The notes under the pieces were generated by a model, which was not told the DNA's origin, ran no database searches, and was given only the letters and a program-made list of their open reading frames with translations. From positions 27,173 to 91,172 of the forward strand of contig POWY01000009.1 in NCBI GenBank assembly GCA_003044455.1: a DNA stretch of 64,000 nt, in the 5' to 3' direction. This stretch comes from Neisseria bergeri. Its GTDB lineage: Bacteria > Pseudomonadota > Gammaproteobacteria > Burkholderiales > Neisseriaceae. Positions 11,198 to 62,493 of the stretch are shown here, in pieces; position 1 is the stretch's first letter, and each line of letters starts with the position of its first letter. The position numbers and the translations under genes are program-made.

Positions 11198-11563
11198 CAA
11201 AGGAGTATCTTTTCCATTTCGCAGTGCTACAATAATTCACGCCGTACCAACCCAACCAAATAGGTTGTAGCTCCCATTCTCATTTCGCAGTGCTACAATG
11301 CCGCGCTATGATTGCCTGCCCTCCGACACGTTGTAGCTCCCATTCTCATTTCGCAGTGCTACAATCTGAACGTGCGGCGTAGTTTCATCATATTGGTTGT
11401 AGCTCCCATTCTCATTTCGCAGTGCTACAATCGTGGTCAGGCTCTCCAACACGCATTCGAGGTTGTAGCTCCCATTCTCATTTCGCAGTGCTACAATACG
11501 GTACGTTGGTTGTCGGTGGCCCCGACTGTTGTAGCTCCCATTCTCATTTCGCAGTGCTACAAT
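11198..11563 (+). CRISPR. Type II-C CRISPR array, five perfect repeats, one degenerate repeat, five spacers
   Basis: Repeats are 36 bp (GTTGTAGCTCCC...GTGCTACAAT) at 11264-11299, 11330-11365, 11396-11431, 11462-11497 and 11528-11563. A degenerate repeat at 11198-11233 keeps only its last 18 bases. Spacers are all 30 bp: 11234-11263, 11300-11329, 11366-11395, 11432-11461 and 11498-11527. Each repeat ends in TGCTACAAT, an extended -10 box, so each spacer probably carries its own promoter, as shown for N. meningitidis. Transcription is therefore on the plus strand, convergent with cas2. The degenerate repeat marks the old end, so new spacers probably enter at the cas2-proximal end. Confidence 0.98.
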
Positions 11564-25082: not shown

Positions 25083-25237
25083 TATAGTGAATTAACAAAA
25101 ATCAGGACAAGGCGGCGAGCCGCAGACAGTACAAATAGTACGGAACCGATTCACTTGGTGCTTCAGCACCTTAGAGAATCGTTCTCTTTGAGCTAAGGCG
25201 AGCCAACGCTGTACCGGTTTAAATTTAATTCACTATA
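25083..25237. repeat. Full-length Correia element (CREE), 155 bp
   Basis: The terminal repeats are TATAGTGAATTAAC... and ...TTTAATTCACTATA. The interior contains the usual GTACGGAACCGATTCACTTG segment. Full-length CREE carry an IHF-binding core, can be cut by RNase III in transcripts and can supply promoters. This one follows the oxidoreductase-like gene. Confidence 0.95.
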
Positions 25238-55771: not shown

Positions 55772-56623
55772 TTACGGCGTTTTGTAGCGGTTGTACATAA
55801 ACAGATACTGCGTCGGAAAACGGCGTATCCAATATTCGGTATTGCGGTTGAACACGGCGGCATCATGGGCTTTGTCGCCGTTCAATTCCCCTTGGACGGG
55901 GCGGATGTGCAACACAAAGCCTTGTCCGTCGGGCAGGCGTTCGCAGCAGAAAAACAGGGTTTTCACGCCTTTGACGTTTGCCAATCTTGCCGCCAGCGTC
56001 ATCGTATAGGCAGGTTTGCCGAAAAAGTCCGCCCATACGCCTTCCCCGCCTTCTTGAGGGGAGGGGACGTGGTCGGGCAGGACGATGGTTGCTTCGCCCG
56101 CACGCAGGGCCTTGATGATTTGTTTGACCCCTTGCATGTCGGTGGGCGCGGTTTTACCTTTGCCGCGCACCCTGCCTGCCTGCATCACTTTGTCTATCGC
56201 TTTGATTTTCGGCGGTTTGTACATGGCGGTCAGCGGGAACGGAAGCTGCTGGCTGATGTAGCGTCCGCCCAAATCGTAGCTGCCGATGTGCGGCGTGATG
56301 AACAGCAGCCCTTCGCCCTTATCCAAAGCCTGTTGCACGTGTTCCCAGCCGTGTACCGATTGGAACAGCGTTTCGATGTCTTCCGGCTTTTTGAAAAACG
56401 CGGGGGCGAGTTCCAAACCGCATTTTGCCGTTTCCGCAAAAACGGCTTTGACCGTCTGCGTGTCGGGGTTCAAACCCGCCTGACGCATATTGGCAATAAT
56501 GCGTGCCCGGTCTTCTTTACGCAGGTAAAACGCCAGATGTCCGAGGAAAACACCTAATTTGTGCAGAAAGGGCAGGGGCAGCAGGGAAAAGGATTTGAGC
56601 AGGGCGGTCAATAAGGTGTACAT
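55772..56623 (-). CDS. Lipid A biosynthesis acyltransferase (LpxL/HtrB family)
   Basis: A 283-residue inner-membrane lysophospholipid/lipid A late acyltransferase. An N-terminal hydrophobic anchor is followed by the HX4D catalytic motif in ITPHIGSYDLGG near residue 110 and by MYKPPK and VLPDHVPSPQEG. Meningococci have two such enzymes, LpxL1 and LpxL2; locus memory favours the LpxL2 type, which adds a secondary laurate, but I cannot confirm which from sequence. Confidence 0.88.
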   Translation of the reverse strand: MYTLLTALLKSFSLLPLPFLHKLGVFLGHLAFYLRKEDRARIIANMRQAGLNPDTQTVKAVFAETAKCGLELAPAFFKKPEDIETLFQSVHGWEHVQQALDKGEGLLFITPHIGSYDLGGRYISQQLPFPLTAMYKPPKIKAIDKVMQAGRVRGKGKTAPTDMQGVKQIIKALRAGEATIVLPDHVPSPQEGGEGVWADFFGKPAYTMTLAARLANVKGVKTLFFCCERLPDGQGFVLHIRPVQGELNGDKAHDAAVFNRNTEYWIRRFPTQYLFMYNRYKTP

Positions 56624-56691
56624 AGCAGGGGGTGAAAGGGGGAAACAGCCCGAATTGTAAACGAAAGATGCCGTCTGAAAAAGGGAACGGC

Positions 56692-56720
56692 TTGCGGTGG
56701 AAAGGCTTTTCTGCTAACAT
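56692..56720 (+). promoter_or_regulatory. Promoter of the metK upstream RNA
   Basis: TTGCGG (56692-56697) and TAACAT (56715-56720) with a 17-base spacer. The start should be near 56727. Confidence 0.55.
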
Positions 56721-56726
56721 CACCCG

Positions 56727-56849
56727 CTTGCATCAAGAGTTGGGAATTCCATGCCAACCTGCTTTTCAAAAGGAAAAGTAAGGTGGACGGTTGAAAAGCT
56801 GATGTGGCCGCAAAGGCAATCCAAACCCGCTTGATGCGGGAATTTTTTT
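56727..56849 (+). ncRNA. Structured RNA upstream of metK, candidate SAM-responsive riboswitch or sRNA
   Basis: About 120 bases from a promoter to an intrinsic terminator (CCCGC-TTGAT-GCGGG-AA-T7, 56826-56849). An outer helix can form between CATCA (56731-56735) and TGATG (56800-56804). Inside are a hairpin TTGG...CCAA (56740-56757) and a hairpin ACCT-CTTTTC...GAAAAG-AGGT (56757-56783). A TCCA loop can pair with TGGA (56784-56787 region) as a pseudoknot. ATCAAGAG, CAACCTGC and AAGGTG resemble S-box blocks. GCATCAAG (56730-56737) can also pair with CTTGATGC (56830-56837) in the terminator, giving a switch. metK starts 270 bases later, beyond a CREE, so a free sRNA remains possible. Confidence 0.5.
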
Positions 56850-56883
56850 GCCTGTAAGAAACGTACGGGCAGAGATTCCAAAG

Positions 56884-56989
56884 TATAGTGGATTAAATTT
56901 AAACCAGTACAGCGTTGCCTCGCCTTGCCGTACTATTGTACTGTCTGCGGCTTCGTCGCCTTGTCCTGATTTAAATTTAATCCACTATA
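56884..56989. repeat. Short-form Correia element, 106 bp
   Basis: TATAGTGGATTAAATTTAAA... to ...TTTAAATTTAATCCACTATA. This is the internally deleted form lacking the IHF core. It lies between the structured RNA and metK and may supply a promoter or RNase III site. Confidence 0.95.
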
Positions 56990-57120
56990 CCATTTAAATG
57001 GGAATGTTTCTCAACTGGATGGCACGAATAGGGAAATTTTGCTATATTTCCCGCTGTCGACATTATGTTCATACAACATGCCGTCTGAAGAAGATGGTTT
57101 GTTTTTCAAGGAAAATCTCA

Positions 57121-58290
57121 ATGAGCGAATATCTGTTTACTTCCGAATCGGTATCCGAAGGCCATCCGGATAAAGTTGCCGACCAAGTATCTGATGCAAT
57201 TTTGGATGCCATCTTGGCGCAAGACCCCAAAGCGCGTGTCGCGGCGGAAACTTTGGTCAACACAGGCTTGTGCGTATTGGCGGGCGAAATCACCACCACC
57301 GCCCAAGTGGACTACATCAAAGTCGCACGCGAAACCATCAAACGCATCGGCTACAACTCCTCCGAGCTGGGCTTTGATGCCAACGGCTGCGCAGTCGGCG
57401 TGTACTACGACCAACAATCTCCGGACATCGCCCAAGGCGTGAACGAAGGCGAAGGCATCGACTTGAACCAAGGCGCGGGCGACCAAGGCCTGATGTTCGG
57501 CTACGCCTGCGACGAAACCCCGACCCTGATGCCGTTTGCCATCTATTACAGCCACCGCCTGATGCAGCGTCAAAGCGAATTGCGCAAAGACGGCCGCCTG
57601 CCGTGGTTGCGTCCCGACGCAAAAGCGCAGCTGACCGTGGTTTACGACAGCGAAACCGGCAAGGTAAAACGCATCGACACCGTCGTCCTGTCCACCCAGC
57701 ACGACCCTGCCATCAGCCATGAAGAACTGAGTAAAGCCGTGATCGAGCAGATTATCAAGCCCGTTCTGCCGCCCGAAATGCTGACCGCCGAAACCAAATA
57801 CCTGATCAACCCGACCGGCCGCTTCGTCATCGGCGGTCCGCAAGGCGACTGCGGTTTGACCGGCCGTAAAATCATCGTCGATACCTACGGCGGCGCAGCT
57901 CCGCACGGCGGCGGCGCGTTCTCCGGCAAAGACCCGTCCAAAGTCGACCGTTCCGCCGCTTACGCCTGCCGTTATGTTGCGAAAAACATCGTCGCTGCGG
58001 GTTTGGCAACCCAATGTCAGATTCAGGTTTCCTACGCCATCGGCGTTGCCGAACCGACTTCGATTTCCATCGATACCTTCGGCACAGGCAAAATCAGCGA
58101 AGAAAAACTGATTGCCTTAGTTCGCGAACATTTCGACCTGCGCCCCAAAGGCATCGTCCAAATGCTCGACCTCTTGCGCCCGATTTACGGCAAATCCGCC
58201 GCCTACGGCCACTTCGGCCGCGAAGAGCCTGAATTTACTTGGGAGCGCACCGACAAAGCGGCCGCATTGAAAGCAGCCGCCGGTCTGTAA
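57121..58290 (+). CDS. metK: S-adenosylmethionine synthase
   Basis: A 389-residue cytoplasmic enzyme making SAM from methionine and ATP. Motifs are [28 protein letters not shown] and [20 protein letters not shown]. The start [18 protein letters not shown] at 57121 is the conserved family start; an in-frame ATG at 56998 abuts the CREE and is unlikely. AAGGAAAATCTCA precedes the ATG. A long 5' region with a candidate regulatory RNA lies upstream. Confidence 0.97.
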
Positions 58291-62424: not shown

Positions 62425-62493
62425 TATAGTGGTTTAACAAAAATCAGGACAAGGCGGGGCAACGCTGTATCGGTTTAAATTTAAACCACTGTA
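62425..62493. repeat. Truncated Correia element, 69 bp
   Basis: TATAGTGGTTTAACAAAAAT... to ...TTTAAATTTAAACCACTGTA. Most of the interior is deleted. Confidence 0.85.

Follow-up and report, generated by a model that had tools for sequence, protein, structure and literature searches.

Does the RNA encoded ahead of the S-adenosylmethionine (SAM) synthetase gene metK of Neisseria bergeri belong to a known riboswitch class, and how might it act on the gene behind it? An initial annotation had noticed a promoter, a compact multi-helix RNA and an intrinsic terminator at this place, and had weighed a reduced SAM riboswitch, a new class and a free small RNA. Within the window, by which we mean the whole stretch of 64,000 nucleotides that was analysed, metK lies at 57121-58290 on the forward strand, as do all features of the locus given below, and encodes 389 aa with Pfam domains PF00438, PF02772 and PF02773. 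The promoter and terminator before it were both confirmed. The distal promoter (56692-56720), recognised from sequence, combines TTGCGG (56692-56697), a 17-nt spacer and the extended -10 element TGC-TAACAT (56712-56720), and the terminator (56826-56849), which also appeared as a terminator-like hairpin in our scan, consists of the hairpin CCCGC-TTGAT-GCGGG (56826-56840), two A residues and a run of seven T (56843-56849). The fold z-score of the 158-nt interval from 56692 to 56849 is -2.22, a value that is misleading in that the interval begins inside the promoter.

A cmscan of the whole window placed a match to SAM-I/IV (RF01725) at 56725-56833 with 44.3 bits, above the gathering cut-off of 41.1; this model is the best of the SAM clan at that position, and the match is the single one to RF01725 in the whole genome to which the window belongs. 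The metK-upstream RNA is a member of the RF01725 family and hence not a new class, which leaves the annotation's reduced SAM riboswitch as the option that held. GlsR10, Leu_leader and sR52 also appeared in a permissive scan of 56500-57000, far under their own cut-offs, and were taken as chance matches. Besides the score, the RNA has the loop-free P2 without PK-1, the P4 and the P5 of SAM-I/IV. The kink turn in P2 and the P2-loop pseudoknot PK-1 that characterise SAM-I (RF00162) are absent, P2 having only 3-4 bp and no internal loop, and so is the combination of P2a/P2b with PK-1 and no P4 that characterises SAM-IV (RF00634), with which the Neisseria RNA shares the common core and P5 but not, with its single P2 and covarying P4, the remaining architecture. 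A passage of PMC6890682 separates the two classes in the same way, giving SAM-IV P2a/P2b with PK-1 and no P4, and SAM-I/IV a P2 that is a single helix, no PK-1 and a P4, and a passage of PMC2864571 describes SAM-I/IV variants without the P2 internal loop. The kink-turn helix that the initial annotation found missing is thus missing because the P2 of SAM-I/IV does not contain the internal loop of SAM-I, as the class leads one to expect. Two further RNA features were seen elsewhere in the window, namely a Neisseria sigma-E sRNA (RF02270; 20011-20083 on the reverse strand, 105.7 bits) and five CRISPR direct repeats of family RF01344 with 66 nt spacing (11264-11563).

The core blocks AUnAAGAG, CCAACC and AAGGUG, in which we take the SAM-contacting residues to lie, are invariant in 24/24 metK leaders except for U/C at a single position of P1. 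That SAM is the ligand we infer from the class together with this intact core. It seems extremely improbable that this SAM-family aptamer has switched to a different ligand such as SAH or another nucleoside: nothing speaks for such a change directly, and the deviation of P2 and the loops from the class consensus has to be set against the invariance of the core blocks and a downstream gene that makes SAM itself. The annotation's remark that S-boxes are not established in Neisseria has to be amended as regards prediction. A passage of PMC7237195 (2020) reports a predicted SAM riboswitch ahead of metK (NMB1799) of N. meningitidis MC58, and a passage of PMC4176332 (2014) a predicted gonococcal one, not significant, at a gene given by its locus tag. 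Our literature search, supplementary files aside (a description could stand there), returned predictions only, with no experiment and no account of the expression platform.

The helices of the aptamer (56725-56833, from the RF01725 match) were followed in two alignments, a wider one of 24 sequences (17 from metK and 7 from other places) and one of 24 distinct metK leaders, from which one leader with a long insertion (L109) was left out; that leader was counted in the pairing, energy and promoter comparisons. P1 is formed by GCATC (56730-56734) and GATGT (56801-56805), as taken from the cmscan alignment, with the pair types GU/AU/GC and UG/CG among the 24 sequences of the wider alignment; the outer helix that the initial annotation had drawn with an internal TGATG is therefore present, with these strands as its exact form. 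P2 (56741-56751) is a minihelix of TGGG and TCCA without internal loop or kink turn, in which 3/4 pairs are changed on both sides, in one sequence each. P3 (56754-56786) carries the conserved CAACC/AAGGTG core, invariant in 24/24, and a distal part that covaries. P4 (56789-56800) shows both-side changes in 3/4 pairs among the metK leaders and in 4/4 pairs in the wider set, and P5 (56807-56817; GCC/GGC), which follows directly 3' of P1, in 3/4 pairs among the metK leaders. The proposed loop pseudoknot between TCCA and TGGA finds no support, since TCCA (56748-56751) is the 3' strand of P2, with compensatory changes, and the GG of TGGA (56784-56787) lies in P3.

In the wider alignment 94.5% of the cells pair, and both sides have changed in 12 pairs, where shuffling gives 5.8 on average and none of 500 shuffles reached 12. 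Sliding the partners by 1-3 columns lowers pairing to 34-48%, a comparison that favours the consensus structures over the slid versions, as the former were written by hand from the same sequences. Among the metK leaders alone, there is covariation in P4 and P5, and P1, P2 and the P3 core are nearly constant. The covariation, with compensatory changes in P2-P5, supports the aptamer and the multi-helix RNA that the annotation had described; P1 in the metK group is nearly invariant, so there is little variation to judge it by. The L3-tail duplex PK-2, in which the P3 loop of the class pairs with the tail behind P5, was not clearly visible in Neisseria: in none of the 24 metK copies was it matched by fewer than 77 of 500 shuffles, and the best of 18 other members of the class stood at 55/500, so that the test is a weak one. 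The single loop-free P2, the P3 core, P4 and P5 3' of P1 are thus shared with other SAM-I/IV members, from which the Neisseria RNA differs by a P2 of 3-4 bp and by the want of a clear L3-tail pseudoknot.

How such an aptamer could act on metK is suggested by its P1 5' strand. GCATCAAG at 56730-56737 and CTTGATGC at 56830-56837 are both present as the annotation had them; the former is the P1 5' strand plus AAG (56735-56737) and would be the 5' strand of an antiterminator, whose 3' strand, CTTGATGC extended to the GGG of the terminator (56830-56840), can pair with 56727-56737. In each of the 24 distinct metK leaders, an uninterrupted duplex of 7-11 bp, G-U included, can form between the P1 5' strand, extended by at most three bases on its 5' side, and the terminator loop and 3' arm, which supports the mutually exclusive pairings of the annotation. 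In 22/24 no more than 5 of 500 shuffles did as well, the exceptions being L020 (23/500) and L108 (43/500); the shuffles permuted single letters, and these counts are not independent, as the leaders are related to one another. A version based on duplex energy, with 25 distinct leaders, placed 24/25 at 25/500 or below (L020 at 25/500) and L108 at 110/500. Among the 47 terminator-like sites that a simple custom hairpin filter returned from the 64-kb window, the true one alone forms at least 7 Watson-Crick pairs with the P1 5' strand. A terminator with GGG and a T run was present in 29/29 metK leaders examined. The pairing is retained with one bulge in L106 and L107, and L110, whose 18-base terminator hairpin has a different sequence, retains 11 bp of it.

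Compensatory change within the antiterminator itself is sparse. The pair 56734/56833 is CG in the window, UA in 12/24 sequences and UG in 11/24, with no mismatch; one antiterminator pair in all is changed on both sides, in one sequence (that of the window); the outermost pair is disrupted in 17/24 sequences, and P1 is almost invariant across the metK leaders. With so few compensations, the support for the antiterminator is that of conserved complementarity among related genomes. By predicted energy the antiterminated fold is more stable than P1 plus terminator in 23/24 distinct leaders, by 4.8 kcal/mol in the window, and is the minimum-energy fold in 18/24 and not in the other 6/24; in L109 the state with P1 and terminator is better by 0.3 kcal/mol. 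For a window transcript assumed to begin at 56724 the antiterminator fold is the minimum. Neither tertiary contacts nor SAM enter into these energies, and what was computed for the window as P1 plus terminator does not have the native aptamer fold inside P1. Terminator and antiterminator exclude each other, as do antiterminator and P1, judged by sequence and predicted energy. Since the antiterminated fold is lower in energy, the default without ligand is predicted to be ON, and SAM would have to supply the energy for P1 and so set the terminator free.

Taken together, these results make it highly probable that the SAM-I/IV RNA is an OFF switch for metK that works through the exclusion between the P1 5' strand and the terminator. 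With SAM bound, the P1 5' strand would be held inside the aptamer, the terminator would form and metK would be off; with SAM absent, the same strand would pair with the terminator loop and 3' arm, allowing read-through. The choice would presumably be made cotranscriptionally, CTTGATGC emerging immediately ahead of the final GGG with which the terminator is complete. Both the OFF direction and a transcription start near P1 are what we infer here. As to the start, the distal promoter is absent from the list of a consensus scan because its -35 element is weak (3/6), and TGnTAnnAT stands 7 nt (9 in the window) before P1 in 23/23 distinct metK leaders; since the promoter adjoins P1, transcription likely starts at the P1 edge, so that some of the outer antiterminator pairs may lie outside the transcript. 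For gonococcus, a passage of PMC4176332 lists six riboswitch candidates, including a SAM one, all within 12 bp of annotated start sites, and does not itself name metK as the gene of the SAM candidate.

The predicted switch resembles known ones in part. It shares with the SAM-I (S-box) riboswitch of Bacillus subtilis yitJ, as a passage of PMC3656099 describes it, the common ligand core, the opposition of P1 and antiterminator, and the direction in which SAM turns expression off. The strand that switches in yitJ (U110) is the P1 3' strand, partner of the P1 5' strand, whereas the Neisseria element is predicted to switch by the P1 5' strand. Within the genus, the thiC TPP riboswitch of Neisseria meningitidis is likewise an OFF switch with terminator and antiterminator, according to a passage of PMC7237195; its ligand and aptamer are different, and it has been tested by experiment, while the metK element is predicted from sequence.

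The distribution of the RNA bears on whether it serves metK at all. RF01725 matched in 28/83 Neisseriaceae genomes, in 26 of them above the cut-off; of the two lower matches, one lies ahead of metK (L027) and the other (L028) resembles a genuine SAM-I upstream of metE, an apparent classical SAM-I leader in a Neisseriaceae genome (L028:1501-1617). A search of the same 83 genomes with a model built from the 24 sequences of the wider alignment, with 47 candidates examined per genome, returned at least 36 copies in at least 33 genomes. Of the 36 copies found, 29 stand upstream of metK, one per genome (at least 29/83 Neisseriaceae genomes), and 7 elsewhere; metK itself is present in 81/83. A set of thirty metK leaders comprised 7 with a diverged copy at metK, which scored 65-93 bits in an unfiltered search, and 23 without one (3 of which have a copy elsewhere in the genome), in which the same search returned nothing above 10.7 bits. 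An exact-pattern search of named records gave 33 stretches, 13 of them from Neisseriaceae, with a metK-type P1 in 11/13 and the terminator as well in 10/11: N. sicca, Neisseria sp. HMSC077D05, N. gonorrhoeae DSM 9188 (in whose record metK itself lies beyond the examined stretch), N. weixii, N. elongata, a Neisseria MAG, N. viridiae, N. iguanae, N. polysaccharea and Bergeriella denitrificans. In the wider order, with 9 candidates scored per genome, at least 28/399 genomes have RF01725, and copies outside Neisseriaceae are followed by metK (in L133 as judged by Pfam, in L138 by sequence similarity), a Cys/Met-metabolism enzyme (L071) or DUF3293 genes.

A free regulatory RNA of about 120 nt that is not, or not mainly, a metK leader would have in its favour the complete promoter-to-terminator unit and the second promoter-like site before metK described below, which would make the distal transcript dispensable. 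This reading is nonetheless very unlikely, given an aptamer core invariant in 24 metK leaders, the position of 29 of the 36 Neisseriaceae copies before metK and the genes behind the copies elsewhere (metK, a Cys/Met enzyme, DUF3293); a terminated riboswitch, moreover, yields such an RNA anyway, and it is solely as that product, and not as the main role, that the annotation's free small RNA survives.

Some loci met in these searches are worth recording in their own right. In 5/83 Neisseriaceae genomes the next gene behind a SAM-I/IV copy encodes each time an uncharacterised protein of about 101 aa (L014:1731-2036, L003:1074-1379, L004:1085-1390, L005:877-1185 and L026:1719-2030), for which there was no Pfam match at E <=1 and no match in the window's genome. 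The DUF3293 proteins, of unknown function, follow copies in L117, L122 and L115, all outside Neisseriaceae. The metK riboswitch at L109:197-446 is about 120 nt longer than the others, with the extra sequence in the P5 region, and is identical from promoter to P1 to the N. iguanae record L131. At L016:156-1500 (reverse strand) metK was read as two overlapping pieces in different frames.

Comparison with relatives bears on the choice of antiterminator. Outside Neisseriaceae, 16/18 distinct elements show a pairing over 9-10 bp between the P2 5' strand (typically GGGCCGACGC) and GCGTCGGCCC or a similar sequence beside the 5' arm of the terminator, reached by at most 18/500 shuffles, the exceptions being L134 and L138; the pairing of the P1 5' strand with the terminator extends over 2-7 bp in these 18 and is never matched by fewer than 26/500. 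The 18 come from 38 loci, of which 27 fit the aptamer pattern and 11 do not; 6 of the 27 have no T run in reach and 3 were collapsed as identical, and the 18 derive in part from a pattern search that favours one sequence type. When the 11 and 6 uncounted loci were re-examined with a relaxed pattern, a single and probably spurious match resulted; on visual inspection, L060, L064 and L068 have a P2-type pairing, and L062, L069 and L075-L078 appear different. It is accordingly conceivable that the Neisseria SAM-I/IV riboswitch uses another antiterminator, built for instance from the P1 3' strand or, as in the relatives, from P2 and the spacer, the more so as the predicted antiterminated fold of the window joins some of the P2 5' strand to the spacer as well. 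We consider this unlikely: in the Neisseria metK leaders the pairing of P2 with the pre-terminator sequence extends over just 4-8 bp and is reached by 46-463/500 shuffles, while that of the P1 5' strand is long and general.

With the P1 5' strand as the preferred switching strand, the expression platform appears to have changed in the Neisseria metK lineage while the SAM-I/IV aptamer was kept. Among the non-metK Neisseriaceae copies, 6/7 were compared (L004 was omitted as near to L003). Their P1-5' pairing extends over 4-7 bp, with L014 at 10/500, L018 at 32/500 and the others at 213/500 or above, and a P2 pairing is clear in L014 only (9 bp, 2/500). As these six copies mostly show neither platform, they do not tell the timing of the change.

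Between terminator and metK lies a Correia-type repeat (56884-56989; inverted arms 56883-56911 and 56962-56990, 93%). It is missing from the same place in L013 and L019, and L009 has a longer one; related ends occur in the window at 25216-25237 and 62472-62493. Beyond the repeat, a possible proximal metK promoter with the extended -10 element TGC-TATATT (TGCTATATT, 57040-57048; 9/12 in a consensus scan) stands 81 nt before the ATG. A similar site 74-95 nt before the ATG occurs in 16/27 distinct riboswitch-bearing leaders and is wanting in 11/27. Riboswitch-free metK leaders have such a site within the last 250 nt in 15/22 cases (L090 was not among the 22 scored), 12 of them at 68-104 nt, and letter-shuffled sequences in 0-18% of cases. 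These counts suggest that the riboswitch unit sits upstream of an older metK promoter, an arrangement that is not general, given the 11/27 leaders without the site. A transcript begun at this second promoter-like site would not pass the terminator, so that the switch may control metK expression only in part and some of it would be independent of SAM.

Joining platform and promoters, we lean towards an account in which SAM-I/IV elsewhere switches by the P2 5' strand, the Neisseria metK copies, with their short P2, switch by the P1 5' strand against the terminator loop and 3' arm, and the unit with its own promoter was placed upstream of an older, SAM-independent metK promoter, adding SAM tuning as a further layer of transcription. 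SAM riboswitches have been discussed as antibiotic targets (in a passage of PMC6890682). The RNA before metK looks like a member of a known riboswitch class with an expression platform apparently of its own; if this is true, it would be a case of an expression-platform swap within one riboswitch class, open to simple transcription assays, and the second promoter-like site and the repeat insertion would affect how tight the control of metK by SAM could be.
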